Source: Ramlibacter sp.
GTDB lineage: Bacteria > Pseudomonadota > Gammaproteobacteria > Burkholderiales > Burkholderiaceae_C
DNA: 64,000 bases
Assembly: GCA_019635415.1 (NCBI GenBank)
Contig: JAHBZN010000001.1
Coordinates: 806,001-870,000 of the forward strand
Direction: 5' to 3'
The position numbers and the translations under genes were made by a program. Positions 10,647-53,629 of the stretch are shown here, piece after piece; position 1 is the stretch's first letter, and each line of letters starts with the position of its first letter. Below the pieces are notes generated by a model. It did not search any database. It saw only the letters and a program-made list of their open reading frames with translations, and was not told where the DNA came from.

Positions 10647-11650
10647 GGCATCAAGTCCTCTGGAATGAGCGGCCTGAGGTTGTCCGCGATCACCGCGCGG
10701 TACAGCTGTCGGTAGTCCGTGCTGATCACCGTGTAGCGCTGTTGAGGGTCGATGCGCTCGAATCGGTAGGTGCCGTCAGCCCGAGACCACGTGCTCGCCA
10801 CCAGGGCGTGGGTGTTTTCGCTGTAGAGCAGAACTTGGCGAACGAGGGGTTGGTCGGGCTGCCCCTTCTCCTTGACGGTGCCGGTGATCTGGCCGTTGCC
10901 GCCGAAATAGATGTCTCGGCGCGCGCTGGCCACAGCTCGAACCCGGGGCGGGTAGCTGCCTGGCTGGCTCCACAGTTCAGTGTTCGGGCTGTGCCAGCGG
11001 GCCAAGGCAGCGGAATGCACGCCGACCGGCGGTCCCGCGAGCGCGGCACGGCAGGCGGATTCGAGCGCGCGCACGTCGGCAAGACTTGCGACACCAGACC
11101 ACAACCCGGCCGCGAAGAAGCGCTCGCTGCCGCCGATGTTGTATTCGTTGCCGTCGGCGTAGTAGCCGATGCCGCCCACGCTGTCTGCCACCCACGAGCG
11201 CGCGAAAGCCGCGCCCGCCCAGTCGTCGTTGATGTACACGCGGGCACTGGCCGGGCTGACGACCAGCGCCATGAACTTGGGCGCGCCCCACGCGGGCCCG
11301 CTGCCCACCTGACCGCCGCTGCCATTGGCGTATTGGTAGATCGCGCCGTTGGACTCCTGATCCAGAAAATAGCTGTTGCTGTCGCCGAGGGTCTTGTAGA
11401 ACACCAGCCCTCGGCTGACGTGCATCACGAAGCCCGCCAGCACGAAGTCGCCGGACAAGGACATCGGAGTCGCCAACGGCCAGGGCTTGTCCTGGCCGTA
11501 CAACCCGTAGAGCGGAAATGGCGTGGCCACACCACCTTGTACGGTGATGGCATTGCTGCCGACCTGATCCTGCAGTTGCCCGTTCGAGAAGTGCAGCGCA
11601 TCCCACGCCGCGACCGGCGTCAACGACGCCACGCTGTCCCACCACGCCAT
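10643..11650 (-). CDS. Putative tail protein with LamG-like and carboxypeptidase-regulatory-like domains
   Basis: The 335-residue product starts MAWWDSVASLTPVAAWDALHF. The first 200 residues look like a concanavalin/LamG-type jelly roll (FVLAGFVMHVSRGLVFYK, then an inner strand RVYINDDWAG and GSERFFAAGLWSG). Residues about 245-330 (ITGTVKEKGQPDQPLVRQVLLY, then TYRFERIDP) resemble a carboxypeptidase-regulatory-like fold. Such modules occur in host-binding tail proteins. Adsorption is a reasonable inference. Confidence 0.55.
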   Translation of the reverse strand: MAWWDSVASLTPVAAWDALHFSNGQLQDQVGSNAITVQGGVATPFPLYGLYGQDKPWPLATPMSLSGDFVLAGFVMHVSRGLVFYKTLGDSNSYFLDQESNGAIYQYANGSGGQVGSGPAWGAPKFMALVVSPASARVYINDDWAGAAFARSWVADSVGGIGYYADGNEYNIGGSERFFAAGLWSGVASLADVRALESACRAALAGPPVGVHSAALARWHSPNTELWSQPGSYPPRVRAVASARRDIYFGGNGQITGTVKEKGQPDQPLVRQVLLYSENTHALVASTWSRADGTYRFERIDPQQRYTVISTDYRQLYRAVIADNLRPLIPEDLMP

Positions 11651-11653
11651 GGC

Positions 11654-12919
11654 TTACCTCCACGGCCCGGTGATGTCGAAGGCGATCTGCGCGCCCTCGG
11701 TTTCCGAGCTGTACTGCGTCCTGACCAGCAGGAACTTCTTGCCCGCCTGACCGACCACGTTGTCGACGATGGTCTGATCGCTGTAGGGGAGGTACTGCGG
11801 CATCCACAGCATTCCCGGCATCAGGCCGCGCATATGGCCCGACTCCTCGCGCACGTAGGTGGGCAGCAGCCACAGGCTGTAGTCCGGGCCATTGGGGAAC
11901 GGCATCGGGCCCCGGCCACAGACTTGGCTGGAGTTGTTGGTGTTGAGGGACGTCAGCCCGAAACGCACCGGGTTTCCGAGTTGGGTGTGACTGCGCAAGA
12001 GGACCTTGCCGGTGAACTCCAGCGACTGCGTGAGCCCATAGCCGTTGAACTGACCGGGGTAACTGATGTAGTGACTGTTGCTCCCGTAGATGTCGTCGGC
12101 GCACAAGACCGTTGCGTAGTTGTCGGCGGGCTTGAAGCTCGTGATGTCGCCAAAGCAGTAGCTGTTGCACCCGAACCAGTTGTAGCCCGGAGCGTTGGTC
12201 AAAAAGAGGAAGAACAGCCTGTCGTCACCGATGAGCACCCAGTTGCGGTTGCCCGCGCCACCATCGGAATAGGTGTCGTAACCGCCTTGGCGGGCGTGGT
12301 ACCACTTGTGCCACCCCCACTGGTTGGCCTCGACCTGCTTCCAGTTCTGCGTCGGGTTGTTCGGATCGAACGGGGCCTGCGCGCCGACGATGGTATCGAT
12401 GTCCGCCAGGTCTTCGACGATGCCGACGTTGGCCCACTTGGCCCAGCTCGTCGTGTAGTTGGGGGTCTTGAGGCTGTTGTCGATCAGCAGCAGGTTCTGC
12501 GGCGAGGCGGGGTTCTTGCTGCGGTACGCCGCCTTGTTCGTACCCGCGAACGCCTTCTCCCACCCCAGCGGCGCAACCTTGGCCGACAGGCTGGTGGCGC
12601 TGGTCGCGGGCGACACGGGCGTGCCGGTCACTGCGAAGGTGAACGTAGTTGCGGTGGTAGCGATAACCCGGAACTGCCCGTTGTACGCGGGCTGGTCGAC
12701 CCCAGCGATCTCGACCACCTGCTCTGACCGATAGGCGTGACCCGCGCTGATGGTGGCGGTGGCCACGCCATCGACACAGGTCAGCGTATCGATTGCCTTG
12801 AGCGCGAAGCCGTTGACAAGGCAGGCGTCGAGCATCGTCACCAGATCGCCCCAGTTGTTGGAGATCTGCGGCGCGCCGGTCATGCCGCTGTTGAAGTACT
12901 TGACGGTGAGGTCAGCCAT
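11654..12919 (-). CDS. Phage tail-region structural protein
   Basis: This 421-residue protein opens MADLTVKYFNSGMTGAPQIS, a type of N-terminus common in phage tail proteins. An early beta domain (residues about 40-115) contains THTFTF-like strands; the rest is rich in Trp, Tyr and Asn (WKQVEANQWGWHKWYHARQ, YCFGDITSFKP), consistent with a large globular receptor-facing or tail-tip domain. It is not recognised as a named family. Confidence 0.55.
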   Translation of the reverse strand: MADLTVKYFNSGMTGAPQISNNWGDLVTMLDACLVNGFALKAIDTLTCVDGVATATISAGHAYRSEQVVEIAGVDQPAYNGQFRVIATTATTFTFAVTGTPVSPATSATSLSAKVAPLGWEKAFAGTNKAAYRSKNPASPQNLLLIDNSLKTPNYTTSWAKWANVGIVEDLADIDTIVGAQAPFDPNNPTQNWKQVEANQWGWHKWYHARQGGYDTYSDGGAGNRNWVLIGDDRLFFLFLTNAPGYNWFGCNSYCFGDITSFKPADNYATVLCADDIYGSNSHYISYPGQFNGYGLTQSLEFTGKVLLRSHTQLGNPVRFGLTSLNTNNSSQVCGRGPMPFPNGPDYSLWLLPTYVREESGHMRGLMPGMLWMPQYLPYSDQTIVDNVVGQAGKKFLLVRTQYSSETEGAQIAFDITGPWR

Positions 12920-40904: not shown

Positions 40905-41750
40905 TTACTCCTGAGATTCGATGTGTGCGGGGGTGGCGGCGCTGGCGGGCGTAGCGGATGCGCCCGCGCACTTGGCGATCAGCGCGCCGAGATGCGGCGG
41001 CTCCAGCACGTCGAGGCGACCGCTGCGGTCTTTGGCCGGAAAGCCGTAGGGATTGACGGTGTGCGTGACGAAGGCGCGGTAGGCGCTGCCGTCCTCGGCC
41101 TTGATCTCGGCCAGCGTCACGACCTCGTCGACGATGCCGGGCAGTTCCAGGCTGGTCTTGCTGCCTTCGATCTGCGGCACGAACACCTTGCGGTTGTAGT
41201 CATCGAGGCGTTCGTCGAGGATGGCCACGAACACCACGTTCTTCCCGCGTGCGTGCTGCAGGTGGGTCAAGGCACTCACCATTTCCTGGCCCAGCAGGCC
41301 GTAGGCACCGCGCAGATCAGGCTTGCCGGAGCGGTCGCTGGTTGCACCGGGCTGTGTCTTGCACCACGCGAAGCACTGGCGCGACAACTGCGTGATCGAG
41401 TCGAGGAAGAAGGTCTGGTAGCGGTCGAGCTGCGTCGCGTCGCCGAACTTCTCGATGACGTGGTCGTAGTGCGCCTGCGAGAACGCGCTCTCCGGCGGCA
41501 GCGACTTGTCTGGGCCCGCGAGGAACACGAAGAAGTCGCGGCTCTCGGGCCATGACGCCGGGCGGATGGTGTCGCCCGGCCAGTCGGCCACTGCCAAGTC
41601 ACCGGCCTCAATGTCGAGGAAAAGCGTGGTGGCAGGATCGAGGTCTTTGAGCCGGGTGGTCTTGCCGATGCCGGACTTGCCGAGCATCAGCAGCTTCACA
41701 CCCTTGCGCTCGGCCATGCGCTGCTGCGCGGAGATGATGGGGAGGCTCAT
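40905..41750 (-). CDS. Sak4-like RecA-fold ATPase
   Basis: This 281-residue P-loop ATPase has Walker A GKSGIGKTT at residues 24-32, a Walker B-like TFFLDSITQLS, and a RecA-type central segment. Phage Sak4 proteins promote single-strand annealing with SSB. The C-terminus is alanine-rich. The start overlaps the previous stop by one base. Confidence 0.75.
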   Translation of the reverse strand: MSLPIISAQQRMAERKGVKLLMLGKSGIGKTTRLKDLDPATTLFLDIEAGDLAVADWPGDTIRPASWPESRDFFVFLAGPDKSLPPESAFSQAHYDHVIEKFGDATQLDRYQTFFLDSITQLSRQCFAWCKTQPGATSDRSGKPDLRGAYGLLGQEMVSALTHLQHARGKNVVFVAILDERLDDYNRKVFVPQIEGSKTSLELPGIVDEVVTLAEIKAEDGSAYRAFVTHTVNPYGFPAKDRSGRLDVLEPPHLGALIAKCAGASATPASAATPAHIESQE

Positions 41751-42508
41751 CACGCGGCCTCCTTCAACTGCTCGGCGACAGCAGGATTCCAGAGGATCTG
41801 GTAGCCGCTGTGGCCGTTGCGCGAGTACGGCATGGCCTCGGCCCACCCCTCACCGGCCTCGGTCAGTTCCCATTCGTCGCGCTCGTTGCGGAACTGAAAG
41901 CCGCCGGCCGCCAGCATCTGGTTCGTGGCCTTCGCCGAGCGGTTGAGCAGCTTGCCAAGCTGCGTGGCGTTCAAGGCGCAGATCGGTTCGTTGGCCGATG
42001 GCAGCGCGCGGCGCAGCACCTCGGTGGTGATGCCCGTGTTCTCCTGAATGCAGGTCAGCGTCGCCGCCGCCGCGATGCCCGGTTTCACGCCCGGCACCTT
42101 CGCCACGGCCTCACCGATCAGCAGGATCGTGGAAACCCGGTCGTGGGCCGGCGCGGCCAAGGTCGCCAGTGCGCCGGGCACGGTGTAGCCGCCGGTCTTG
42201 CGGATCGCGGGCAGCACCTCGCTGGTCACCCAGCGCTTGAAACGCTTGGCGGCGTCCTTGGTACTGCCGAGGATCAGGGCGTAGAGGCCCGATTCATTGA
42301 CGTGGTTCTGGCGCTGACGGCCACCCGCCGTAAGGGTCTCCAGTTTCTGGAGATCCTCGGCATCGACGTGCGACTTGATCGCCTGAGACGGATTGCCCAT
42401 TTCCAGGGCATCGCAGACATCGGTGGCGTTGAACCACGGCTGCCCCTGATCATCGACCTGGACGCGCACGGCGTGCGCTTCGAACTGGAAGGGAATGATC
42501 GCGCTCAT
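41750..42508 (-). CDS. BRO-N antirepressor-like protein
   Basis: This 252-residue protein has a BRO-N domain (VRVQVDDQGQPWFNATDVCD, then VNESGLYALILGSTKDAAKR and FKRWVTSEVLPAIRKTGGY). The C-terminal half carries HTH-like segments (ALNATQLGKLLNRSAKATNQ). Antirepressors of this type inactivate prophage repressors, but the partner is not identified. GAGGG-type bases precede the start. Confidence 0.85.
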   Translation of the reverse strand: MSAIIPFQFEAHAVRVQVDDQGQPWFNATDVCDALEMGNPSQAIKSHVDAEDLQKLETLTAGGRQRQNHVNESGLYALILGSTKDAAKRFKRWVTSEVLPAIRKTGGYTVPGALATLAAPAHDRVSTILLIGEAVAKVPGVKPGIAAAATLTCIQENTGITTEVLRRALPSANEPICALNATQLGKLLNRSAKATNQMLAAGGFQFRNERDEWELTEAGEGWAEAMPYSRNGHSGYQILWNPAVAEQLKEAA

Positions 42509-42510
42509 GA

Positions 42511-42792
42511 TCAGCCCTCCCACGACACGTCGGCGATGCGGTCGGCCCCACGCGCGGCGCGCTTGCGCACCTCCGTGTGGAGTTCTTCCAGCGCGGTACG
42601 GCGGCGGCCGAGCGCCAGCGATTCCGCGTTGGCCGTCTGGATGGCGAAGGCCAGTTCGTCGACCGTGGCGGCATCGAGCGGGACGACGACGTCCTGGCCG
42701 TCCGCGCGGCGATACCAGATTTCGTCGGGAAGGTGTTCACCGTAGATGGACGGCAGCTGTTGACGCAGCGAAGCGATGAGGTTGGTGCTCAT
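42511..42792 (-). CDS. Phage early protein, unknown
   Basis: This 93-residue protein (MSTNLIASLRQQLPSIYGEH, then VVPLDAATVDELAFAIQTAN and RTALEELHTEVRKRAARG) is mostly helical with a basic C-terminus. It sits in the early operon between two other small genes. No motif is recognised. Confidence 0.55.
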   Translation of the reverse strand: MSTNLIASLRQQLPSIYGEHLPDEIWYRRADGQDVVVPLDAATVDELAFAIQTANAESLALGRRRTALEELHTEVRKRAARGADRIADVSWEG

Positions 42793-42797
42793 GGTTA

Positions 42798-43274
42798 TTA
42801 CTCCGAATCGATGGAAAGGGTGAAAGACGGCTTGCCGGAATCCACAGTGCGAGCGGCGGCGAACTGCTGTTGCAAGGCAGGCGGCCAGTTCGTGAAGCGG
42901 GATTCGGAGACGGACAACTTGATGTCGAGGTAACCCTCGACCTTCTCGCCTGAGGCGACGATGCGTTCGGCGATTTCGGTCAGTTGCTTCTGATCCCAGC
43001 TGACCTTCTTGGGCAGCTCGAACTTCAGGTGCAACGGGCCATCGCTGATGTGGGCGGTGCCGAAGTCACGGCCGGATTCACGCAGCGCGGTACGGGCCTG
43101 CTCGCCGTAGCACTGATCCAGCGCCGCATCGAACTTGGCGCGGGCCTTCTTCAGCCAGTCGATGGCGGCATCAAGGTTTTGGTCGATCTCGTGCTTCTGC
43201 GCGGGCGGCAATGCAGCCAGTTGGCTGACAGACATCTCTGCGATGTCAGCGGGGAAGATGGTGATGTCGTTCAT
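42798..43274 (-). CDS. Phage early protein, unknown
   Basis: This 158-residue protein (MSVSQLAALPPAQKHEIDQN is the early helical part) has a central KKVSWDQKQLTEIAERIVAS segment and ends TVDSGKPSFTLSIDSE. Composition is soluble and helical. It follows the HTH gene in the early operon. Function unknown. Confidence 0.6.
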   Translation of the reverse strand: MNDITIFPADIAEMSVSQLAALPPAQKHEIDQNLDAAIDWLKKARAKFDAALDQCYGEQARTALRESGRDFGTAHISDGPLHLKFELPKKVSWDQKQLTEIAERIVASGEKVEGYLDIKLSVSESRFTNWPPALQQQFAAARTVDSGKPSFTLSIDSE

Positions 43275-43285
43275 GGCATCGCTCC

Positions 43286-43549
43286 TCAGCCCGCCGCGCG
43301 CTCGGACGTCGAGTCGTGCAGCGCCTCGCGCTCGAACTGGATGACCGCGTCTACGGGGTAGCCGACGCGCTTCGACAGCTTCAGGTAGCGCGGGCCGCGA
43401 CCTTCGCTGCGCCAGCGCTGCAAAGTCTTGGGGCTGACGCCCCAACGTTGCGCGAGCTCGTTTTCGTTGAGCACCCGGCGATCACCGGGTGACATGGTGT
43501 TGATCGCCTGCTGGGGCGACCGGGGAATGCTGCTGGTTGGTGTCTGCAT
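43286..43549 (-). CDS. AlpA/MerR-like helix-turn-helix protein
   Basis: This 87-residue protein has a clear HTH, VLNENELAQRWGVSPKTLQR followed by WRSEGRGPRYLKLSKRVGYP. AGGAG lies 7-8 bases before the ATG. It heads the early operon and may regulate it or act as an excision factor. The upstream 181 bp (43550-43730) holds repeats of AACTTCGGGT with GGCGAACC and GTTCGCC, a likely regulatory region. Confidence 0.75.
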   Translation of the reverse strand: MQTPTSSIPRSPQQAINTMSPGDRRVLNENELAQRWGVSPKTLQRWRSEGRGPRYLKLSKRVGYPVDAVIQFEREALHDSTSERAAG

Positions 43550-43730
43550 GGAATGCTCCTGTGACGTTGTTGGGGAACAGGTGTCATTCCAAACTTCGGG
43601 TGGCGAACCTTTAAGGGACGCAATGGCGAACCACGCAGAAACTTCGGGTTCGCCAATCCGCCAGCTCCCGCCCAAAAGCAGACGGCGAGCACATGGCTCG
43701 CCGTCATCGGGGAAGTCGGGGATGAAAGGG
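43550..43730 (-). promoter_or_regulatory. Early-operon control region (putative)
   Basis: The gap carries two copies of AACTTCGGGT (about 43591 and 43641) followed by GGCGAACC or TCGCCAATC. Such paired sites beside an HTH gene suggest an operator. No sigma-70 boxes were assigned with confidence. Confidence 0.4.
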
Positions 43731-44195
43731 TCAGGCGTCGGGGAAGCCGAGCAGCCGACGCTGCTCGCCCCAGTCGCGCGGCAGCAGGTCTTCGCGGCCA
43801 CGCAGCGTGTGCAGGTTCAGCTGCCGGGGCTGGCGACCTTCGAAAATTGCCTCGACGATGTCCGGGGCCAGCATGGTCATCCGCAGCACCTCGGCCGCCC
43901 AGCCCGGTTCCAGTTTCAGCGCTCGTGCAAGATCCGAGGTTGTCGGATACGTGCCGTCGTCGATCAGCCGCTTCCAGTAGAACGCCTTGCCGAGCGTCTT
44001 GATCATCGGCACATCGAAGCCGCCCGTCGCAGCGGCGGCGTCGGGCGTGGGCGGAATCAGCAACTTGCGGTTCTGGCGGCGCTTGATGGTCAGCGGCACC
44101 AACGTGACGCGCTGCCCATCGCTGACATAGCTGCGGGCATCGACTCCGACCTCGATGTGGACTGTGCGTTTGCGCGGGTTCACCGAGGTGGTCAT
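43731..44195 (-). CDS. Recombinase-associated HTH-like protein
   Basis: This 154-residue protein (TVHIEVGVDARSYVSDGQRV, then LTIKRRQNRKLLIPPTPDAA) has a ParB/Spo0J-like HTH region, SDLARALKLEPGWAAEVLRM. It is coupled to the serine recombinase gene by ATGA and closes a four-gene operon. It recurs next to such recombinases in prophages as I recall; role unknown, perhaps a DNA-binding accessory. Confidence 0.65.
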   Translation of the reverse strand: MTTSVNPRKRTVHIEVGVDARSYVSDGQRVTLVPLTIKRRQNRKLLIPPTPDAAAATGGFDVPMIKTLGKAFYWKRLIDDGTYPTTSDLARALKLEPGWAAEVLRMTMLAPDIVEAIFEGRQPRQLNLHTLRGREDLLPRDWGEQRRLLGFPDA

Positions 44196-45616
44196 GCCAG
44201 TGCCTCCTCAGGGTGCTCACGGGCTTCCTCGACCAGCGGATGCGCGCTGATGTCGGCACGGAATCCAATCCAACCGTCCTCGCGCCAGACGATATCCAGT
44301 CCATGCCCGTGCAACTGCACCCGCTCGATCAGCAGTCGTGTGATGCGTTGCTGTTCGGCGGGGAATAACTGCGCCCACACGTCGCCGATGCGCTGCATCG
44401 CCACCACCACCTGCGCTTCGTCGAGCGTGCTACCTGCGGGGTGCTGCTGGCAGGCTCGCCAGACCGCGATCAGCATCTGGGGAGCCGAGAGTGCCGCGTG
44501 GATTTGCGCCAGCACCGCGTTCTCGATTTCGGCGGCGGGCAGATGACCCACGTCCGGCGTACCGGGCGACAGGCTCGCGCCCGCGTTTCGCCGCTTGTGC
44601 AGGTACGGGACGTAGTAGCGGTACTGCCGTCCGTTCTTCTTCTTGACGAAGGAGTGCAGCATGCGTTGCCCGTCGGGCGCGAACAGCAGACCCGCCAGCA
44701 GTGCCGGATGCTTGGCGGCGTGCTCGCGTGGCGCTTGCTTGCGTCGTTCGATGAAGGCATATACAGCGTCCCATAGGGCCGGGGCGACGATGGCCTCGTG
44801 CTGACCCGGATACCACTGCTCGTTGTGAGAAATTTCGCCGAGGTAGATACGGTTTCGCAGCATCGTGAAGAGGTACTGCTGGTCGATGGTGCGACCCGAG
44901 CGTTCGCGCCCGGTCTGCGTCACCCACGCCTTGGTGGTGTGGCCTTCGATGACCAGTTCGCGCACGAGCCGCGCCGCCGAGCCATGCTCGCCGTAGCGCC
45001 TGAATATGTCGCGCACCAGTGCCGCCTCGCGTTCGTTGACGACGAGCTTGCGCTCGACCACGTCATAGCCCAGGGGCGGCACGCCGCCCATCCACATGCC
45101 CTTGGCTTTGCTGGCGGCGATCTTGTCGCGGATGCGCTCGCCGGTGACTTCGCGCTCGAACTGTGCGAAGGACAGCAGGATGTTGAGCGTCAGCCGTCCC
45201 ATCGAGGTCGTGGTGTTGAACTGCTGTGTGACCGAGACGAAAGACACGCCGTTGCGGTCGAACACCTCCACCAGCTTGGCGAAATCTGGCAGGCTGCGTG
45301 TGAGGCGGTCGATCTTGTAGACGACCACGGTGTCGATCTTCCCGGCTTCGATGTCGACCATCAGGCGGCACAAGGCGGGACGATCCATGTTGCCGCCGGA
45401 GTAGCCGCCATCGTCGTAGCCGTCGCCGACGGCGATCCAGCCCTCAATCCGTTGGCTGGCGATGAAGGCGAGGCCTGCATCGCGCTGGGCTTCGAGACTG
45501 TTGTATTCCTGATCCAGCCCTTCGTCGGTGGATTTGCGGGTGTAGACGGCGCAGCGCTTCTTCGGCGTGATGCTCTGGCTGCCCGGGGGCAGCGGATTGG
45601 CGCGCGGCGACCTCAT
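44192..45616 (-). CDS. Large serine recombinase (probable phage integrase)
   Basis: This 474-residue site-specific recombinase has its catalytic serine S29 in AVYTRKSTDEG, the resolvase fold with VVYKIDRLTRSL and FAQFEREVTGERIRDKIAAS, and a recombinase domain from about residue 180. The usual zinc-ribbon cysteines are absent: the equivalent segment (LLAGLLFAPDGQRMLHSF) has none, so this domain is degenerate. It is the only integrase-type gene in the prophage, so it most likely inserts and excises it. Confidence 0.9.
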   Translation of the reverse strand: MRSPRANPLPPGSQSITPKKRCAVYTRKSTDEGLDQEYNSLEAQRDAGLAFIASQRIEGWIAVGDGYDDGGYSGGNMDRPALCRLMVDIEAGKIDTVVVYKIDRLTRSLPDFAKLVEVFDRNGVSFVSVTQQFNTTTSMGRLTLNILLSFAQFEREVTGERIRDKIAASKAKGMWMGGVPPLGYDVVERKLVVNEREAALVRDIFRRYGEHGSAARLVRELVIEGHTTKAWVTQTGRERSGRTIDQQYLFTMLRNRIYLGEISHNEQWYPGQHEAIVAPALWDAVYAFIERRKQAPREHAAKHPALLAGLLFAPDGQRMLHSFVKKKNGRQYRYYVPYLHKRRNAGASLSPGTPDVGHLPAAEIENAVLAQIHAALSAPQMLIAVWRACQQHPAGSTLDEAQVVVAMQRIGDVWAQLFPAEQQRITRLLIERVQLHGHGLDIVWREDGWIGFRADISAHPLVEEAREHPEEALA

Positions 45617-46083
45617 GCCATCACCTTCTTCGATGCCGGCGACTTGAGGCCGAAGAACACGGGACCCGACCAGTGGCTGCCCGTGATGTGGCCCGCAATC
45701 GCGGACAGGCTCTTGAAGCGTTGCCCTTGGTATTCGAAATCGTTCGAGCCGCGCACCAGCACGCGATGCTCGACATCGTCGTAGATGCGCGTGAGGATGG
45801 TGCCGGGCAGCAGGCGCTGGCTGTCGCTGCGCAGTTGCTTAGGCAGGATGCCGGTTTCGCCGACTTCCTCGAGCTTCTTGCGCAGCGTTGGTCTCAGTCC
45901 ACCGAAGGCACGTTCCTGAATCCGGTAGGCCAGTCGGCTCTCCAGCCAAGTGCGATGGTGATGGCCGGGGCGCTCATCAAAGTGGTCATCCCAGAGGGCC
46001 CAGAGGTCGTCCATCGAAAGATGGGGAAGCGCCGCGACACGTGCGGCGACTGAGGTGGTAGATGGTTGTGCGTGTGCTGTCAT
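45613..46083 (-). CDS. DUF2924-domain protein
   Basis: This 156-residue protein has a typical DUF2924 pattern, ALWDDHFDERPGHHHRTWLE and RLAYRIQERAFGGLRPTLRK, then a C-terminal beta part (FEYQGQRFKSLSAIAGHITG, WSGPVFFGL). Proteins of this kind usually sit next to large serine recombinases. GGAG lies upstream. Start and stop both overlap neighbours by ATGA. Confidence 0.85.
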   Translation of the reverse strand: MTAHAQPSTTSVAARVAALPHLSMDDLWALWDDHFDERPGHHHRTWLESRLAYRIQERAFGGLRPTLRKKLEEVGETGILPKQLRSDSQRLLPGTILTRIYDDVEHRVLVRGSNDFEYQGQRFKSLSAIAGHITGSHWSGPVFFGLKSPASKKVMA

Positions 46084-46295
46084 GGGCGAACTCCGTTGTT
46101 GTGATCGGGGTTCGCATTCACGCGCTGTTGGCCGGGGAAGCCAAGGCGAACGCACTCGCTGGTTTCGATGGTGTCCCGCGACGGACGCGTGCGCAGGCGC
46201 AGGAGTGCAGCGGCCAGCAGGTCGGCGATTTCCTGCTGCGCGTGCCGGGGGCAGTCAGACGGCGGGGAAATGGAGATGGGTTCGATTTTTGTCAT
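46080..46295 (-). CDS. Small recombinase-operon protein
   Basis: This 71-residue protein (MTKIEPISISPPSDCPRHAQ, then EIADLLAAALLRLRTRPSRD) is the first gene of the recombinase operon and overlaps the DUF2924 gene by ATGA. It resembles small conserved proteins found at this position in related prophages (recollection). An inverted repeat, GCGTTT/AAACGC, lies just upstream at about 46301-46318. Function unknown. Confidence 0.55.
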   Translation of the reverse strand: MTKIEPISISPPSDCPRHAQQEIADLLAAALLRLRTRPSRDTIETSECVRLGFPGQQRVNANPDHNNGVRP

Positions 46296-46384
46296 GGCAG
46301 GCGTTTCGATGGAAAACGCTGCTCATGCTAAAAACCGTGGGCACTTCGCGTAACGTGATTTAGCGGGAGTGCGCGGGGTTGGTG

Positions 46385-47236
46385 CTATGCCTGTTTGGCC
46401 CGATACCAAGCCGCGCGCTGGCCGCCCACATCACGATATCGAAGCTCGAACAGGCGCGATTCGTGTACGACCTGCCGCCAACTGCTGCAACCGTACTTGA
46501 CGGGCAGGTGTTCGGGGTGCCGCTCTGCGATCCAGCGTCCTGCCGATGCAACCGGTGCCCAGCCATCGACGGCCAGTTCAGCGGCGGCATCCCGCAGCGC
46601 GCGCACGATCCCTGCGGCAGGCCAATCCACCGAACCGTCCGGCGCGATGCCGTGGATCACCAGATCGTAGAACGCATCGGACTGGGCGAATTCCGCCGCC
46701 AGCCGTCGGACCTGATCCATGTGCTCGGCCCAGCCCCGCAGTTGCTCGAAGTGCTGATCGATGCGACTGTAGGCGGCCTTCAGGGTGTCGTGTGCGCCAC
46801 GGCATCCGTCCAGGCTCCAAAGGTCATGCTGGTCGATGAAATGATGTACCAAGTTGTTCCTTAGCAGCACCAGTTCCTTCAACTCGTTCTGCGTCCTGTG
46901 GTAATCCTCAACCGACATGCGCAGATTCATCTTTACCTTGAACGAGATGATGTCGTCGAGTGCATTAGATTCGGAAGCAGCTTCCACCTGGTCGGTGGTG
47001 ACACACGAACCGAGGAGTGTGCCGACCAAGGTGCCCAGCGTTTTGCTGGCGGCATCCGCGATGCGCTGCTCTTGATCCGACGCCAGCGGTGATCCAGCAG
47101 CCGAGATTTCGTGGTCGGCCACGATGGCCTTCATCAACTTTTCGTACTGCTGCAGACGCAGCAAGCAGCGGCCCAGCAATCGCTGAACCTCACGTTGCTG
47201 CATCGTCAGCGCATCATTGGCGGGCCATGTCGTCAT
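46385..47236 (-). CDS. HEPN-like and OST-HTH/LOTUS domain protein
   Basis: This 283-residue protein has a helical N-terminal domain with LLRNNLVHHF, where R126 and H131 form an Rx4H motif typical of HEPN ribonucleases. The C-terminal region from about residue 205 (RALRDAAAELAVDGWAPVAS, then WRQVVHESRLFELRYRDVGG) matches the OST-HTH/LOTUS RNA-binding fold. It is the last gene of an XRE-ImmA-DUF262 operon and lies next to the prophage boundary. Ribonuclease activity is inferred. Confidence 0.75.
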   Translation of the reverse strand: MTTWPANDALTMQQREVQRLLGRCLLRLQQYEKLMKAIVADHEISAAGSPLASDQEQRIADAASKTLGTLVGTLLGSCVTTDQVEAASESNALDDIISFKVKMNLRMSVEDYHRTQNELKELVLLRNNLVHHFIDQHDLWSLDGCRGAHDTLKAAYSRIDQHFEQLRGWAEHMDQVRRLAAEFAQSDAFYDLVIHGIAPDGSVDWPAAGIVRALRDAAAELAVDGWAPVASAGRWIAERHPEHLPVKYGCSSWRQVVHESRLFELRYRDVGGQRAAWYRAKQA

Positions 47237-47260
47237 GGATGAATCGCCAGCGATTGCCGA

Positions 47261-49096
47261 TCAGACGTCGATGGGCGACGTCTTCCAGACATCCTGCGCC
47301 AAAGTGATCAGCAGTCCGTGGCGCCTCTCGATGGATGCAGCATTCCACGCAGGAAATGCAGCCAGCTTGGCATTGATCCGGGAAATGGATGTGTTCTGTC
47401 CGACGTCGGTCAGCGCCCCCAGACTGCGGGTCAGGTAGTTGCCGCTCTTGCCATACTCGACCTGCTTGGCCGTGTAGAAGTCGTTGCCCGCGACGATGTT
47501 GATCGGCTTTTCCAGCAAGGTCAGATTGCCGAGGCGATTCTTGTAGTCGTCGTAAACGGCATTCGGGTTCTCTGCCGCCCACGTGGCGCGCAGTTCCGCC
47601 TTCGGGTTGTCGGGCAGGATGTGCTCGATTTCCAGTTTGGTGAAGGGCTCCAGACTACCCGGGGTCTTAAGGCCGCTGAATGCCATCTCGACGTGCTGCG
47701 TCAACCGCGCCAGCAGGTAGCGCGTGCGGTACTGCTGCATCGAGTACAGCGTGAAACGCTTGAGGGCGTCGGCCAGCTCCTGCGACTTGCCAGCCATGCT
47801 CTTCTCGAAGCGGTCGGCGACGAAGGCGTTGAGCTGCACCTTCTGCTTCACCGGATCGCTGGCGTCAGCAATCGCGCGCAGCTCGTCGGCCCATTGAGAG
47901 AAGCTGCGTTCCAGATCCTTGGTCGGCGTTTTGGTGAAGATGTAATAGAAGAGGAAACTCTCCAGCTGCGCCACGAAGTGATCGAACAGCGGCTTGGGGA
48001 AATTCGCCGCCGCCAGCAACAGGACGTAGTGCAAGCTGAACGCACCACCGGCCAGCCGTTTGAGGCTGTCCATCGCCAGGCTCGGTTTGCCATCGTTGCC
48101 CATTCCATTGGCGAAGGCGAGGTAGTGCTCGACGTTGCGGATGACCTTGCGGACGAACTCGAAGGGCTTGCCCGCGTAATCGCACAGCGCAGCGTTGTCC
48201 TTGGCGATAAACCAGTCGTAGATCTCGTCTTCGCGCACCACCGCATCGCCGCGCTCGTTCTTGATGACGTAGTTGGCCATCAGGAAGTAGCGCAGGAAAC
48301 GCAGCGGCTTTTCCTTCTCCTTTTCCAGCGGCTTGGTGATCTTCTTCCACTCATCTTTGAGCTGGGTGAACTGCGCTTGCTTGACCTGCGTGAACAGCAG
48401 GTTCTTGAGCAAGTCCATCGGGTTCAGGCCCACGCCGCGCTCGTTGATGGTCTCGAAAATCTTCAGCGCGCTGCTGACGTCGGTGGAGATCTGAATGAAC
48501 ACCACGTTGTTGGCCAAGTAACCCCAATACTTCTTCAGCTTGGGGGTGTCGTCGTAGTTGTCCTTCAGGTAGCGGTACAGCGTGCTGTAGGCGTTGACCA
48601 GGTTCTCCAATGAGCCGAAGCTGGCGATTCCCGCTGCCTGAATGGCAGAGCGCACGGCCTGCGGTTCGGCGTCCAGCTCCACCAGCTTGGCCATTACCTC
48701 GCCCGCGCTCTCGTAGCGCGGCTCCAGCTTCAGGTTGGTGCGCACTTCGCCGTCGCTATCCACGTAGCTGGTCGAAATCAGCCCGGAAAGCATCTGCCGC
48801 TGCGGCTCGCCCTGGAACAGATGCTTCAGCGCGCACAGCAGCAGGAAGAAAGTGGTCAGGCGCTGCTGGCCGTCGATGACCTCGTAGTGGCTCTTCTGAT
48901 CGGTTGGCGACACCAGCACGGTGCCAATGAAGTATTCCCGCGTGGTGCCCGCATCGATCTGCTCGCCGATGTCCTCCAGCAGCTGATGCACTTCCTTGTC
49001 GGTCCAGACGTATTCGCGCTGGTAGTCCGGGACGATGTAGAAGCACTCTTGGAAGGCTTCCACGATGCTGTATTTGTGGTTTTCTATGCGGGCCAT
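47261..49096 (-). CDS. DUF262-DUF1524 (GmrSD/SspE-like) nuclease
   Basis: This 611-residue protein starts with DUF262: PDYQREYVWTD (24-34) and the NTP-binding IDGQQR (74-79). Near the C-terminus comes DUF1524 with EHILPDNP (H at 492) and NRLGNLTLLEKPIN about 30 residues later, the HNH-like nuclease of GmrSD-type modification-dependent restriction enzymes and SspE. It follows the ImmA gene with a short gap. No Ssp or Dnd genes are in the window, so if it is a defence protein it acts alone or with the operon partners. Confidence 0.88.
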   Translation of the reverse strand: MARIENHKYSIVEAFQECFYIVPDYQREYVWTDKEVHQLLEDIGEQIDAGTTREYFIGTVLVSPTDQKSHYEVIDGQQRLTTFFLLLCALKHLFQGEPQRQMLSGLISTSYVDSDGEVRTNLKLEPRYESAGEVMAKLVELDAEPQAVRSAIQAAGIASFGSLENLVNAYSTLYRYLKDNYDDTPKLKKYWGYLANNVVFIQISTDVSSALKIFETINERGVGLNPMDLLKNLLFTQVKQAQFTQLKDEWKKITKPLEKEKEKPLRFLRYFLMANYVIKNERGDAVVREDEIYDWFIAKDNAALCDYAGKPFEFVRKVIRNVEHYLAFANGMGNDGKPSLAMDSLKRLAGGAFSLHYVLLLAAANFPKPLFDHFVAQLESFLFYYIFTKTPTKDLERSFSQWADELRAIADASDPVKQKVQLNAFVADRFEKSMAGKSQELADALKRFTLYSMQQYRTRYLLARLTQHVEMAFSGLKTPGSLEPFTKLEIEHILPDNPKAELRATWAAENPNAVYDDYKNRLGNLTLLEKPINIVAGNDFYTAKQVEYGKSGNYLTRSLGALTDVGQNTSISRINAKLAAFPAWNAASIERRHGLLITLAQDVWKTSPIDV

Positions 49097-49121
49097 GTTC
49101 TTTTTCCTGGGGCGTTCAAAT

Positions 49122-50054
49122 CTATCGCCGATCCGGCAACTGGCCGTTCGACACGAACTGATCGAAGCTGTCGAAGCTCTCCTCGTCCTGCCACGACTGA
49201 TCCCACGAGCGCGGCTCGGCGCTTTCGAGCAGGAGCAGCGTGAGGACGCGATCCCGCGTGGTGTAGCTGTGCTTGAACTCGCGCAGCCTCATGTGCTGCG
49301 CCTCTTCCGGACACCAGATCGCTGCGGGTATCTCCGCACCATCCCATTCCTGCGCGATGTTGGCGTCAGCGGCCAACGTGCCCGGCGGCGGTTCCGCTGG
49401 ATCATCGTTGCGACGGATACGTGCACGCGTCTTGACGGCGCTGCTGCTGCGCCATTCGTACTTCGCGTAGCCGTTGTCCCAATAGACGAGGATCGCCCGC
49501 TGCGTCGTGAACTTGATGAAGCGAATGCACAGCGCCTCGAACGAAACTTGGAATCGTTCGGCGATGGCGCTGAGGACATGCAGGTCGATGCGCTGGTTCG
49601 ATATCCACTCGCGCAACAAATCACCGGGCATCAGCAGGTTACTGGCGAAGTCGTCGGCTTCCCGCTCGATGACGCGGATGGTGTCGATACCGGAATAGAC
49701 GCTTTCCTTGTCGCAGTTGAAGCTCTGCCTCTGACCGCGATGCAGGACGAAGTGGCCCAGCTCATGGGCGATGGTGAAGCGTCGGCGCGCGGGGCTGGCC
49801 TTGCCGTTGTAGAAAATGCCCCACTCGGCGGTGTCCTCCGGGTTGCGCACCAACATGCCTTCGCAGCTGTCGATGTCGAGCACCATCGGGGCTTTGATCT
49901 CCCGAACGCCAGTGCCGTAGGGCGTGGACGGCAGCATCTGCCGGACGATCTCCAGATCGACAGCGTCGGGCATGCCTTCGTTGTGCCACGCCCGCAACCA
50001 CTTCTGGACGGTATTGGCGGCAATGGAACCAGTGAGGGCCTGCGCTGCGCTCAA
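49122..50054 (-). CDS. ImmA/IrrE-family metallopeptidase
   Basis: This 310-residue protein has the zinc-protease motif HELGHFVLH (HExxH) near residue 95, followed by EREADDFASNLLMP with the third ligand. Such proteases usually cleave a cognate XRE repressor. The start is a TTG directly after the upstream stop (TGA GGA TTG), consistent with tight coupling to the XRE gene; a later ATG (about 49973) is possible. It is unusually long because of a C-terminal extension of about 130 residues. Confidence 0.85.
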   Translation of the reverse strand: MSAAQALTGSIAANTVQKWLRAWHNEGMPDAVDLEIVRQMLPSTPYGTGVREIKAPMVLDIDSCEGMLVRNPEDTAEWGIFYNGKASPARRRFTIAHELGHFVLHRGQRQSFNCDKESVYSGIDTIRVIEREADDFASNLLMPGDLLREWISNQRIDLHVLSAIAERFQVSFEALCIRFIKFTTQRAILVYWDNGYAKYEWRSSSAVKTRARIRRNDDPAEPPPGTLAADANIAQEWDGAEIPAAIWCPEEAQHMRLREFKHSYTTRDRVLTLLLLESAEPRSWDQSWQDEESFDSFDQFVSNGQLPDRR

Positions 50055-50057
50055 TCC

Positions 50058-50399
50058 TCAGCCCCCGGTTTCGCCCTTGTCGGGGAACATGATTTTGAGC
50101 GCCTGCCGGTAGCGATCCTTTTCCTCGCCCGTCATCCCCGCGTACTCGCGGAAGAAGGCCACGTCCTCTGGGCTGGCCTGGGGAACTTGCTGGATGGGTT
50201 CGCCCATCACGTCCTCCATCGTCACGCCCAGTACCTTGGCGATGGCCTGAATCCGTTCTGCGGACGGGCGCTGTCCGTCTTTCATTTCCAGTTCCCAGAT
50301 GTACGCCTTGGTGCAGCCGACCGCGTCGGCGACCTGCTGCAGGGTCAACTTCTTCGCCTCGCGCAAGCGTCGCAGGCGTGCTCCGAACGCCGAAGCCAT
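50058..50399 (-). CDS. XRE-family transcriptional regulator
   Basis: This 113-residue protein has an N-terminal HTH (GARLRRLREAKKLTLQQVAD, then AVGCTKAYIWELEMKDGQRP) and a C-terminal segment that is probably cleaved by or bound to ImmA (AFFREYAGMTGEEKDRYRQA). It is the first gene of the minus-strand operon and likely binds the inverted sites in the promoter region to its right. Confidence 0.9.
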   Translation of the reverse strand: MASAFGARLRRLREAKKLTLQQVADAVGCTKAYIWELEMKDGQRPSAERIQAIAKVLGVTMEDVMGEPIQQVPQASPEDVAFFREYAGMTGEEKDRYRQALKIMFPDKGETGG

Positions 50400-50448
50400 G
50401 GCGATGCTCCTGTAGTTGGAAAACAGTCAGTGAATGAAATCAAGACCG

Positions 50449-50548
50449 ATAGTATAGCCGCGAGATACATAAAAGGTCCAGATGTGCCCCGTTGATTGAC
50501 AAGCGGAAATCCGAGGTTCAGAATCTCGCTTGTATCTCGCGGCTTTAC
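50449..50548. promoter_or_regulatory. Divergent promoters with inverted operator pair
   Basis: GCCGCGAGATACA at 50457-50469 and its inverted partner TGTATCTCGCGGC at 50531-50543 (arms 50456-50470 and 50530-50544, 14 of 15 bases agree) lie over the two promoters. The minus promoter has -10 TATACT at 50456-50451 just left of the first arm. The plus promoter has TTGACA at 50496-50501, 18 bases, then AGAATC at 50520-50525; the second arm covers its start region. The XRE protein is the natural candidate regulator. Confidence 0.75.
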
Positions 50549-50643
50549 TTACGCGGGATTCGTGTTCAGTAACCAGTCGCTGGCCCGTGCAGCCCGTACA
50601 TCGGTCGCAGACCTCCGACGCCGATCCAGAAAGGACGAACAAG

Positions 50644-51879
50644 ATGAAGAAGACCTTTGTCGACGTGATGCTCGAGCTGCCGGTGGATGCCACGCTGCGC
50701 GACTTCCTGACCTCACATGGCCTGCCCGTGCCGGGCGGGTTCGCATGGGACGACACGCCGGAGACCAGCCAGTCCTTGGTGGAGGCGGTCAAGGTCTGGC
50801 CGGACACCGCCGCCCGCGACCAGATGACCGCCAACCTCATGGCCAGCGTCCAGTTGGGCGACCCGGCGGGCAAGCAGGCGATGTTCGAGGCCGTGGTTTC
50901 CGATGCCGCCGCGCTGGCGGGCCTGACGCTGTGCCGCAGCGACGTCCACCGCTCGTTCTGGCTCTACGTCACCCACCCGACGCTGTTCGAGCGTGCCTAC
51001 GACTTCAGCTTTTGGGAGCACCACGGGCCGCAGACCCAGCAATACGACCTGGGCCTGAAACGCCAGCCGAATGGCTCGGATACGAACTTGGCCGGTTTGC
51101 GCAATGCGATCTCGGCCTTCTACAAGCGCGAGATGCAGTGCGGCGACAGCAGCGTGGCGCATCTGGTCGAGCGCAGTCCCGGCGTGTTCCTGCTGACCGT
51201 CCACGTCAAGGACATGGCGATGCTGCGGCTGGAGTTCGAGGGGCCGACCCTCAAACGCCGCGTCGGCAATCCCAATATCCACATGGTGCTGGAGTACGCC
51301 AAGACCACCGGCGTCGTGCGCACGCTGGTGCGCGGCGGGCAGAAGTACCAGCAGATGCTGGTCGAGGCCTTCGCCGAGCATGTGCTGGGCGTCAAGGCTA
51401 GCGCGAGCCGCATCAAGTCGCCGACCCTGGATTTGTCGATGCTGCGCACCGGCTTCGACGTGCCGGAGGCGTTCGAGGACGGTTTCTCGATGGTGCAGCT
51501 CAAGGCGCTCACGCTCCTCAGCCCCGACACCGCACTGAAGATCGAATGCACCGCGATGCAGTCCAGCCAGCAACGCTCGGTACACGAGCTGCTGAAGGAG
51601 AAGCTGCCCGGCCCGCTGGAAGGCCAGTGGGCGGTGACGGCGGCACAGGTCAATCTCTACTATCCGCCCGAGCCGGGCCGCACGCGCGCCAAGGTGGTCA
51701 CCATCGAAGTGACCAGCAAGGGGCGTCTGAACCTGCACAAGTTCGACGCCAAGATGCAAGCGCAGTTGGAAGGCTATCTGGTCGGGGTGGGCATCTTGCA
51801 GAAGGGCCAGACTCTGAGCGCGCAGGAGATGCCGCCGGAAGCGGACGCGATCAGCTCGTCGTCGGTGTTCGAGGATTGA
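50644..51879 (+). CDS. Uncharacterised protein, divergent partner of the XRE operon
   Basis: This 411-residue protein (MKKTFVDVMLELPVDATLRD, then WLYVTHPTLFERAYDFSFWE) is not recognised. It contains no obvious P-loop or nuclease motif. Segments such as ARDQMTANLMASVQLG and IHMVLEYAKTTGVVRTLVRG suggest a mixed helical/beta protein. AAAGGA precedes the start. It starts from the promoter opposite the XRE gene and is followed 3 bases later by a second uncharacterised gene. Confidence 0.7.
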   Translation: MKKTFVDVMLELPVDATLRDFLTSHGLPVPGGFAWDDTPETSQSLVEAVKVWPDTAARDQMTANLMASVQLGDPAGKQAMFEAVVSDAAALAGLTLCRSDVHRSFWLYVTHPTLFERAYDFSFWEHHGPQTQQYDLGLKRQPNGSDTNLAGLRNAISAFYKREMQCGDSSVAHLVERSPGVFLLTVHVKDMAMLRLEFEGPTLKRRVGNPNIHMVLEYAKTTGVVRTLVRGGQKYQQMLVEAFAEHVLGVKASASRIKSPTLDLSMLRTGFDVPEAFEDGFSMVQLKALTLLSPDTALKIECTAMQSSQQRSVHELLKEKLPGPLEGQWAVTAAQVNLYYPPEPGRTRAKVVTIEVTSKGRLNLHKFDAKMQAQLEGYLVGVGILQKGQTLSAQEMPPEADAISSSSVFED

Positions 51880-51882
51880 TGT

Positions 51883-52878
51883 GTGGCGGCGCATGACGCT
51901 TGGGCCTTGATCTGCCGCCTGTTCGCAGGCGGCACGCCGGTCCTGCGCACCACGCTGTCGCCGCGTGACGTTGCTGTGCTGCCCGTCCTCGGCAAGGCGG
52001 TCAAGCCGACGGTCGTTGATCAGTCGTTTGTCCTCTGTCCTCACTGTCAGCAGCATCGGACGCAAGTTTGGGGTGACGGCCGTGGCGGACGTATATGCCG
52101 TTGCCCGGACTGCGGGCCGGTGGCCGTCGAGGCAGCCGATGGTGCGGCCTTGGCCTTGGACGAGGACTGGCTGCGGCAGAAGATGCGCCTCGCGCTCGAC
52201 ATCGAAAGCCGTGACGGCATCGATGACCTCGGCGACGGCGTGTGGCGGCTCGGCGATGCCCGGCGGTCGCCCGTCCTGCTGGCCCGCGACCTGACGCGCG
52301 TGCTGCAAGAACCGGGGCTGCTGGAGCGGGTGCGCGTGGCGGGCGGCGACATCCGGGTGATCACGCCAAGGCCGCGAACGACGCGCGGAGCACCATTCAG
52401 CGCGGGCGTGGAATGGCTGGTGCTGGAAGAACGCTTCACGTTCTATGGTGGCGGGATCACGTTCATTGCCGCGCCGCCGTCCACGATTCCAGCGGTCGTC
52501 GATCCGGCCAAACCCGTCCACGGGCCGTTCTCGGCGGACTTCAAGTGGGCGACGCTGCCGGACGGCGATGGCACGCCGATTCGATTCACCGACGGTCAGG
52601 CCAAAGTGTTCGAGGCGCTGTGGTCGTTCAAGGGCGAAGCCACGACGGCGGAACGGATCATGCAGCGCGCGGGTCTGGACAGCGCCAAGCCGAGCGACCT
52701 GTTCAAGATCAAGACAAAGGACAAGGGCAAGCCGGAGCCGGAAGCGCAGCACGCTGCCTACGGCGCGCTCGTTGCCACGCAGCAGCGCGCAGGGTTGTAT
52801 TCGATTCCGTGCGCGGCGAGCGCGCTGGCGTCCTCCCCACACCAGACATCAGGAAAGGGGGAGACCTTCATGGCATGA
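51883..52878 (+). CDS. Uncharacterised zinc-ribbon and winged-helix-like protein
   Basis: This protein of about 331 residues starts with GTG. The N-terminal part has a zinc ribbon (LCPHCQQHRTQVW, then CRCPDCGPV). The C-terminal 120 residues contain RFTDGQAKVFEALWSFKGEA and then AERIMQRAGLDSAKPSDLFK, a winged-helix-like DNA-binding segment, ending in QQRAGLYSIPCAA. It follows the 411-residue gene by 3 bases and is presumably co-expressed. Function unknown; DNA binding is inferred. Confidence 0.65.
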   Translation: MAAHDAWALICRLFAGGTPVLRTTLSPRDVAVLPVLGKAVKPTVVDQSFVLCPHCQQHRTQVWGDGRGGRICRCPDCGPVAVEAADGAALALDEDWLRQKMRLALDIESRDGIDDLGDGVWRLGDARRSPVLLARDLTRVLQEPGLLERVRVAGGDIRVITPRPRTTRGAPFSAGVEWLVLEERFTFYGGGITFIAAPPSTIPAVVDPAKPVHGPFSADFKWATLPDGDGTPIRFTDGQAKVFEALWSFKGEATTAERIMQRAGLDSAKPSDLFKIKTKDKGKPEPEAQHAAYGALVATQQRAGLYSIPCAASALASSPHQTSGKGETFMA

Positions 52879-52951
52879 GTTCCACCCCTGAAGCGCCAAG
52901 GCTCGCGCCGACTTCAAGAGCCTGTCCTTTTCAATTTTTGGAGCATTTGCA

Positions 52952-53182
52952 ATGAGCGGAAAAAACCAATAGGTCGTACCCGTCAACGGCGGTGAACAGT
53001 GGGGTGTGCGTGGTGAAGGCAACGACCGCCTCACCTCCGTCCACAACACGCAGCAACAGGCGATTGACCGCGCGCGGGACATCGCCATCAACCAACAGAG
53101 CGAGATGCTCATCCAAGGGCGTGACGGCCAGATCCGTGAGCGCAACAGCTACGGTCATGATCCGTTCCCGCCCAAGGGCTGA
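52952..53182 (+). pseudogene. DUF2188-like small gene with an amber codon at position 7
   Basis: From ATG 52952 the frame reads MSGKNQ, then TAG at 52970-52972, then VVPVNGGEQWGVRGEGNDRL and on to EMLIQGRDGQIRERNSYGHD before TGA at 53180-53182. That is a complete DUF2188-type protein of about 76 residues apart from the stop. Relatives read NQxVVPxNGGWAVRG, so TAG replaces one codon. Either a recent nonsense mutation or restart at a later GTG. Confidence 0.8.
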
Positions 53183-53192
53183 CGTTGCGGCT

Positions 53193-53240
53193 GGCCTCGC
53201 GGGTTTGCACGGGCAATGTGGAGCAGCAAACCCGCGAGCC
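53193..53240 (+). terminator. Long hairpin after the DUF2188 remnant
   Basis: Two arms (about 53194-53208 and 53226-53240) pair over 15 bases with one mismatch (GCCTCGCGGGTTTGC against GCAAACCCGCGAGCC), with a 17-base loop. There is no T run, so factor-independent termination is uncertain. From here to the tRNA terminator I see no gene. Confidence 0.5.
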
Positions 53241-53440
53241 AACCATTCCCATCGGCACATGCACAAGCCATTGACGAAGAACGCCGCCTGCGTGTGCCAC
53301 GGCGAAGAAGTTGGCGCAGGTTTCGAGAGAAGATAGGGCAGAACAGGGGCGAACTGGGCGAGTCATGCCGCCCACGCCCGACACGGTTGGCACACGCAGA
53401 ATGGCCCGGAAGCCCGCGCAGTGTGCGGAACCCGCAAAGG

Positions 53441-53469
53441 AAAACGCCCAACCGAGAACGGTTGGGCGT
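53441..53469 (-). terminator. Terminator of tRNA-Ala
   Basis: ACGCCCAACC and GGTTGGGCGT (53444-53453, 53460-53469) form a 10-bp stem with a 6-base loop; on the minus strand it is followed by TTTTCC. It lies 7 bases after the tRNA 3' end. Confidence 0.85.
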
Positions 53470-53476
53470 CGAATGG

Positions 53477-53552
<76 letters not shown>

Positions 53553-53629
53553 ACAACAACCGCTATTCTAGCAACAAGGCGCCGTGTTTTGAGGCAGCCT
53601 TGGATTATGCCAAAAAAAATTCATCGGGC

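Follow-up and report, generated by a model that had tools for sequence, protein, structure and literature searches.

A 64 kb stretch of DNA from Ramlibacter sp. (contig JAHBZN010000001.1, positions 806,001 to 870,000; "the window" in what follows) carries, at one end of an integrated temperate phage, what we read as a phage immunity region. In it a CapH/CapP repressor-protease pair would act as a switch that keeps two divergent promoters shut and is likely released by DNA damage. Two core phage genes, here called UP1 and UP2, leave from one of these promoters, and an exchangeable cargo of predicted anti-phage genes lies behind the other. The probability given to this reading is about 0.75. It is carried by the gene layout, the identity of CapH and CapP by sequence, a pair of candidate operators, a constant CapH/CapP-UP1 unit beside a variable slot, and the replacement of CapH/CapP by an S24/LexA-like repressor in some of the relatives compared with the window (given below as locus numbers, L followed by three digits). 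An earlier sequence-only reading had taken six of the genes for one undescribed defence module; as a six-gene defence system the region does not hold up, but read as a phage switch whose cargo can be exchanged it is of real interest.

The minus strand holds four open reading frames (ORFs) separated by gaps of 3, 25 and 24 bp. The first gene of the operon, capH (50399-50058), encodes an XRE repressor of 113 amino acids, and capP (50054-49122) an ImmA/IrrE metallopeptidase of 310 amino acids. These are followed by two cargo genes, one for a predicted GmrSD-type nuclease of 611 amino acids with DUF262 and DUF1524 domains (49096-47261), the other for a HEPN-LOTUS protein of 283 amino acids, a predicted RNase with a C-terminal OST-HTH domain (47236-46385). 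UP1 (50644-51879, 411 amino acids) and UP2 (51883-52878, 331 amino acids) are found on the plus strand, and the divergent gap lies between the capH start at 50399 and the UP1 start at 50644. The minus-strand genes had been described as a four-gene operon; the four ORFs are there, but the array does not end at 46385 and extends into a DUF2924 gene, a serine recombinase and phage early genes.

The XRE and ImmA proteins are, as judged by their matches, a CapH/CapP pair, the products of side-by-side genes homologous to characterised proteins. CapH matches Pfam HTH_31/HTH_3 (1.9e-15) and the PADLOC model capH (7.1e-24). Its best PDB match is 7t5u (3.4e-14), an entry listed as a helix-turn-helix (HTH) protein, which we take to be the CapH structure. 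CapP matches Pfam Peptidase_M78/ImmA (1.9e-22) and PADLOC capP (1.5e-57), and its best PDB match is the solved CapP, 7t5t (1.8e-41). The zinc-protease site consists of HELGH at residues 97-101 together with E132, and H97, E98, H101 and E132 are nearly invariant in 62 distinct sequences. A protease-controlled repressor therefore heads the operon, as had been proposed from the sequence. In L127, which has no CapH/CapP at UP1, a second, weak CapH/CapP-like pair (scores 30 and 90) is found about 6-7 kb away; the gene after it is presumably a nucleotidyltransferase of the cyclic-oligonucleotide-based anti-phage signalling system (CBASS). Passages in PMC13373217 and PMC10904395 describe how, in immune operons, single-stranded DNA (ssDNA) activates CapP, which then cleaves CapH.

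Each strand of the capH-UP1 gap carries one predicted sigma70-like promoter, in agreement with the earlier suggestion that the plus-strand genes leave from an opposite promoter. The UP1 promoter (50496-50524, plus strand) reads TTGACA-17-CAGAAT and agrees with the consensus at 10 of 12 positions; the capH promoter (50451-50480, minus strand) reads TGGACC-18-TATACT and agrees at 9 of 12. Of 15 loci compared, both near and distant and with the window included, 14 have a TTGACA-type UP1 promoter in this gap; L129 is the one in which none was found. Two candidate operators of 19 bp accompany the promoters. O1 (50451-50469) overlaps the whole -10 box of capH (TATACT), and O2 (50531-50549) starts 7 bp downstream of the corresponding box of UP1. 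The two are inverted copies facing each other, 95% complementary, with centres 80 bp apart. When the intergenic regions of 40 loci (33 distinct sequences) were aligned, both boxes and both promoters were the conserved parts. A looser operator pattern was matched in 38 of 110 loci, twice in 34 of those. Among 14 relatives of other lineages, a weaker O1/O2-like pair of inverted repeats was found in L128 and L131 only, so that the operator sequence diverges between lineages. We infer that CapH binds at O1 and O2.

Comparison of relatives distinguishes a constant core from a variable slot. The loci chosen by their UP1 gene, from viral contigs and genomes, number 90 with the window included, five short duplicates or stretches having been dropped. 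CapH and CapP are divergent from UP1 in 68 of the 81 loci with at least 1.6 kb upstream, and the 54 CapH/CapP loci with at least 6 kb upstream contain the serine recombinase in 53 cases and DUF2924 in 51. The slot extends from CapP to DUF2924, with junctions immediately past the CapP stop and immediately before a shared stretch ahead of DUF2924. Complete slots numbered 77; 15 of these came from the HEPN scan described below, and the other 62, window included, were counted. Empty slots, defined as those without a called ORF of 100 amino acids, made up 22, while 7 held HEPN-LOTUS only, 3 held DUF262 with HEPN-LOTUS, and 30 held other genes. For example, L111 (HEPN) and L093 (trypsin-like) carry unrelated cargo between flanks whose DNA is 98.4% and 97.1% identical.

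These counts bear directly on the six-gene proposal, in which CapH/CapP would govern, within a dedicated defence system, the DUF262 and HEPN genes to one side of it and a pair of accessory defence genes to the other. The six genes do stand together in the window and in 2 of the 16 viral UP1 loci (L085 and L100), but the search for them elsewhere recovered all six in just 5 of 80 HEPN-LOTUS loci. UP1 and CapH/CapP are accompanied by no cargo in the 22 empty slots and by different cargo in 30; HEPN occurs in the slot without DUF262 in 7 of the 62, and DUF262 without HEPN in L217. CapH/CapP and UP1/UP2 belong to the phage core and occur without either cargo gene. Failure to co-occur elsewhere had been named with the earlier reading as what would refute it; on these co-occurrence counts the six genes were rejected as a unit, and we regard the module as highly improbable. 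The switch-plus-cargo layout itself is not accidental.

Known or candidate defence families were detected in 8 of the 30 slots with other cargo. A Tin relative is found in L108 (1.7e-17) and, by cluster membership, in L121. L091 has an LmuA-like protease (7.1e-9), L122 a match to HEC-07 (1.7e-12), L150 a SIR2 protein (7.8e-13), and L119 a helicase with a REase_MTES_1575 end that matches PDC-S37 (2.8e-63). An ApeA N-terminal domain (1.9e-25, from Pfam only) is encoded on the opposite strand in L129, and an AbiU2-type HEPN protein (1.7e-5, under the Pfam cut-off) in L149. By its gene content the slot is a prophage defence hotspot: what it holds varies, its borders are conserved phage genes, and known defence genes are among its contents.

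CapH/CapP can also be replaced at UP1. Of the 13 loci that lack CapH/CapP, some of them weak UP1 matches, 5 have an S24/LexA-like repressor immediately upstream of UP1; none of the 68 with CapH/CapP does. The UP1 proteins of L152 (CapH/CapP) and L153 (S24 repressor) are 91% identical. This exclusion resembles one in pneumococcal prophages, where ImmAR-like and C1-like regulators are mutually exclusive according to passages in PMC12637031. It is conceivable, and we propose it tentatively at somewhat less than even odds, that CapH/CapP, known as the damage switch of immune operons in bacteria, serves a widespread family of serine-integrase phages as its lysogeny switch and can be exchanged at one promoter for LexA-type repressors, with one ssDNA signal triggering both lysis (through UP1-UP2) and the cargo.

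The two cargo genes of the window are both predicted, from domains and motifs, to be anti-phage nucleases, and they remain plausible effectors, as the sequence-only reading had held. The first matches Pfam GmrSD_N/DUF262 (4.7e-40) and GmrSD_C/DUF1524 (5.9e-20), the two domains originally assigned to it. In PADLOC it matches Orf5 (1.4e-87) and HEC-06 (5.3e-69), and far more weakly SspE (1.5e-18). The DUF262 motif IDGQQR and H492, the HNH-type histidine of DUF1524, do not vary among the 7 sequences compared, which are distinct but closely related. Close relatives of this protein were detected in 25 viral loci, 4 of them in the present slot (two being contigs already seen), including L217. No CapH/CapP was found near DUF262 in the other 21 within the stretches compared, and in L208 DUF262 follows a type I HsdR gene. 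DUF262 without HEPN, without CapH/CapP and beside HsdR indicates that it combines freely. The DUF262 neighbourhood of L226 resembles that of L208. In L206, L208, L219, L220 and L226 the gene is found near the lysis/tail end, after type I restriction (L208) or other large genes, and this position is a second variable site in related phages.

The HEPN-LOTUS protein had been assigned a HEPN domain, a catalytic motif at R126/H131 and an OST-HTH domain. The last two stand: OST-HTH is matched at 8.5e-10, and in the motif RNNLVH (R126-H131) the residues R126, N127 and H131 are unchanged in all 77 aligned rows (RN-x3-H). The match to Pfam HEPN_RiboL-PSP has an E value of 0.15, far under the cut-off, and a search of solved structures gave two matches at E 0.4-0.5, which are not credible. 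A scan for relatives kept 80 of 93 loci, of which 18 have CapH, CapP and UP1; the five full sets of six, with DUF262 and UP2 added, are counted above. Most of the 62 loci without CapH/CapP (among L005-L084) lie in PFGI-1-type conjugative elements, in which the gene belongs to the replication/partition core. The relatives in these elements are mostly 65-70% identical and adjoin STY4528 and PFL_4669 genes. Neighbour clusters in the 80 loci, each named from one member, include ParB (40), ParA (39), topoisomerase III (39), the STY4528 family (30) and the PFL_4669 family (44). Such surroundings are what would be expected if HEPN-LOTUS were a housekeeping protein of mobile elements, active in RNA processing, copy control or element exclusion. 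In the phage, however, HEPN-LOTUS is one alternative among many, and in other loci the slot is taken by Tin-, SIR2- or ApeA-like genes. HEPN RNases are also described as common in conflict systems in passages of PMC3710099, and passages of PMC11087260 present as an anti-phage system a HEPN protein that phage 80alpha encodes in its cI operon. The housekeeping explanation is judged unlikely.

Several points weigh against the immunity-region reading. Only two sigma70-like sites were found in 44000-53600, one per strand and both within the capH-UP1 gap, a number at chance level for this region (shuffles: mean 1.6, standard deviation 1.3); the weight of the promoter pair rests on placement and conservation, not on the number of matches. 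No third operator copy was detected in the 64 kb with up to 3 mismatches allowed (shuffled sequence: mean 0.22), a scan that shows only the absence of a third copy, the pattern having been derived from O1 and O2 themselves. The position of the early genes points both ways. In 22 of the 68 CapH/CapP loci (arrangement B) they come after UP1-UP2 and share its strand, which speaks for the reading, L133 being so placed on one Xis-like match. In 42 of 68, window included, they are found past the recombinase and run with capH (arrangement A), so that UP1-UP2 is not the head of an early operon there; 4 of 68 are unassigned. The phage encodes an anti-repressor, Ant, whose target may be a repressor other than CapH. 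HEPN-LOTUS is a core gene in some conjugative elements, and a role other than defence is therefore possible. Among the 30 slots with other cargo, 3 hold non-defence genes, namely a KatG-type peroxidase with a ferritin-like protein (KatG/Dps) in L092, mercury-resistance-like genes in L116 and a beta-lactamase in L130. A further 19 gave no informative family match (L156, counted among them, was not searched); they include L093 and L097, whose cargo looks trypsin-like (under the cut-off, and by cluster for L097). PADLOC gave no match for the ApeA-like cargo of L129 or the AbiU2-like cargo of L149. The loci are not independent, since several hardly differ or are one contig met a second time, and most of the empty slots belong to two lineages. 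It may be added as a separate observation that resistance genes, those of L130 and L116, also ride in the phage slot.

The block UP2-UP1-CapH/CapP-slot-recombinase appears to be inverted relative to the early genes between lineages. Loci inverted with respect to the window include L126, L128, L131, L139 and L164-L173. In either arrangement one of the divergent promoters points at the early genes, and this would favour CapH/CapP as the induction switch.

A different role for CapH/CapP has to be weighed here, that of a cargo-specific regulator acquired with the defence genes, another repressor keeping the phage in lysogeny. CapH/CapP is known for the control of immune operons (passages in PMC13373217), the candidate operators are confined to the capH-UP1 region, and Ant implies that some repressor exists in the phage. 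Against this, CapH/CapP is kept at the 22 of 62 slots that are empty, it faces UP1 with the early genes following in arrangement B, and it is swapped for an S24/LexA-like repressor at the same promoter. A cargo-specific role is accordingly considered quite improbable, if less so than the six-gene module.

If the immunity-region reading is correct, binding of CapH to O1 and O2 would keep the capH operon as well as UP1-UP2 repressed. DNA damage, from stress or from a competing phage, would provide ssDNA that activates CapP, and CapP would cleave CapH. With the loss of CapH both transcription units would rise, giving UP1 and UP2, which are likely DNA-binding early proteins, and a pulse of cargo. 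The DUF262/DUF1524 protein may then cut modified or foreign DNA and the HEPN protein RNA, perhaps aimed by its LOTUS domain, so that the cargo would harm the competing phage or the cell infected by it.

UP1 and UP2 are core phage genes of a broad phage family. UP1 was matched in 16 viral contigs. Among genomes, and with weak matches counted, it was found in 26 of the 399 from the order and in 9 of the 369 from the class; no named phage or plasmid record matched at E 1e-5. Around relatives at 20% identity (L137, L142-L144), the stretches compared contain little or nothing of the other module genes. The structure model predicts a CENP-N/RdgC-like fold for UP1, with a helical domain and an RdgC-like sheet, a likeness at the level of fold similarity. 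A sequence link to RdgC was dropped, as no homology was found with hhalign against 13 RdgC sequences (probability 0.1%). In UP2, cysteines C52, C55, C74 and C77 are invariant in 16 sequences, and structure matches of the model (predicted local distance difference test score 84.2) place an OmpR-like winged helix at the end of the protein; the zinc ribbon and winged-helix-like end first noticed in the sequence are thus borne out. The middle of UP2 (about 94-205) is barely covered by structure matches. UP2 is likely DNA-binding. Beyond UP2, a short ORF (52952-53182) has an in-frame TAG at codon 7; a similar ORF in the corresponding position of L133 is intact, with 74 amino acids.

The region is one end of an integrated temperate phage. 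Beyond the cargo, the minus strand continues with the DUF2924 gene that forms the right-hand border of the slot (45613-46155; Pfam DUF2924 1.9e-44), a large serine recombinase, the phage integrase (44192-45616; Resolvase 7e-38, Recombinase 2.2e-10), and a recombinase-associated protein (43731-44195; phrog_14161 3.8e-50). Early genes identified by PHROGs follow at 40905-43801, also on the minus strand: Xis-like, phrog_2480, the anti-repressor Ant and a Sak4-like annealing protein. To the left of the Sak4-like gene, on the same strand, are genes for a primase, methyltransferase, terminase and tape measure protein, and most phage genes share one strand. The terminase, tape measure, recombinase and early genes around the operon identify a prophage.

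The right edge of the insertion is the 3' end of tRNA-Ala(CGC), found by ARAGORN at 53477-53552 on the minus strand. In a same-genus genome with an empty site, homology resumes at window position 53476, adjoining the tRNA 3' end at 53477, and on the other flank 22.7 kb left of the window, so that the inserted DNA is about 76.2 kb. With its left edge 22.7 kb outside the window, the insertion holds more than this one phage genome. No repeat of the tRNA 3' end that could be the left attachment (att) site was found in 1-12000 by shared 13-mers, nor a left att repeat in 1-53300 by short blastn, where the best matches were 12 bases. In 16 of 28 relatives scanned, tRNA-Ala(CGC) or tRNA-Phe(GAA) lies on the same side, 14 of them no more than 1.3 kb from the UP2 end. 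The rest of the 76-kb insertion, to the left of the phage lysis end, contains an OLD-like AAA/TOPRIM gene (1739-3856) and, at 3914-6227, what we take to be an IS21-type transposase pair.

Prophage hotspots for anti-phage genes are already known; passages of Rousset et al. 2022 (PMC9122126) describe them, including one in Vibrionaceae between the cI repressor and the integrase, and assign old and tin of P2 to the P2 hotspot. As in these, variable defence-type genes lie here between repressor and integrase, a Tin relative among them. The present phage family differs in having a serine integrase and another type of repressor, and transcription of its cargo is predicted to start at the damage-released promoter of the repressor itself. 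What is new is the phage family, CapH/CapP at the head, the exchange of repressors and the UP1 fold. The slot also offers a list of candidate anti-phage genes that stand behind a regulator of known type.

Staphylococcus phage 80alpha likewise has a HEPN effector, Tha, encoded behind its repressor of lysogeny, so that there is a precedent for HEPN-based defence from a repressor operon. Passages of PMC11087260 report that the Tha transcript falls on induction, whereas the present cargo is predicted to rise on damage, through negative autoregulation at O1. The first cargo protein has both domains of the GmrSD/SspE-type nucleases and retains IDGQQR and H492, but it is encoded by a single gene with no modification gene found in the slot; in the related phage L208 it lies beside a type I restriction gene. 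The predicted UP1 fold resembles RdgC and CENP-N/CENP-L (Chl4/Iml3), whose mutual likeness is already described in passages of PMC4080450. UP1 differs in being longer, phage-encoded and without detected sequence similarity to RdgC, and would extend this fold group into a broad phage family.

By sequence, the closest PDB relatives of the repressor-protease pair are CapH and CapP, which regulate CBASS and other immune operons (Lau et al. 2022, as cited in passages of PMC13373217, PMC10904395 and PMC10233336). In both cases adjacent genes encode an HTH repressor and an HExxH metallopeptidase and lie at the promoter of an operon that includes defence-like genes. The present pair differs in being part of the phage core, kept even where cargo is absent, facing two phage genes and provided with a second candidate operator. 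No description of CapH/CapP as a lysogeny switch was found in the open-licence papers searched. LexA-type repressors respond to RecA filaments, and the exchange of CapH/CapP for an S24 repressor beside a 91%-identical UP1 is thus a natural experiment on the damage signal of a prophage, ssDNA directly or RecA filaments.

The ImmR/ImmA pairs of ICEBs1, TnSmu1 and Gram-positive prophages are also similar, in that a repressor and a protease control a mobile element after DNA damage. The protease of the window is nearer CapP (1.5e-57) than the phage metalloprotease families tested (phrog_1914, 2.1e-23). The region thus joins the literature on CapH/CapP as an immunity regulator with that on mobile-element switches of the ImmR/ImmA type and, if the more tentative proposal of a lysogeny switch given above is true, phage induction and host immunity would come under one shared trigger.

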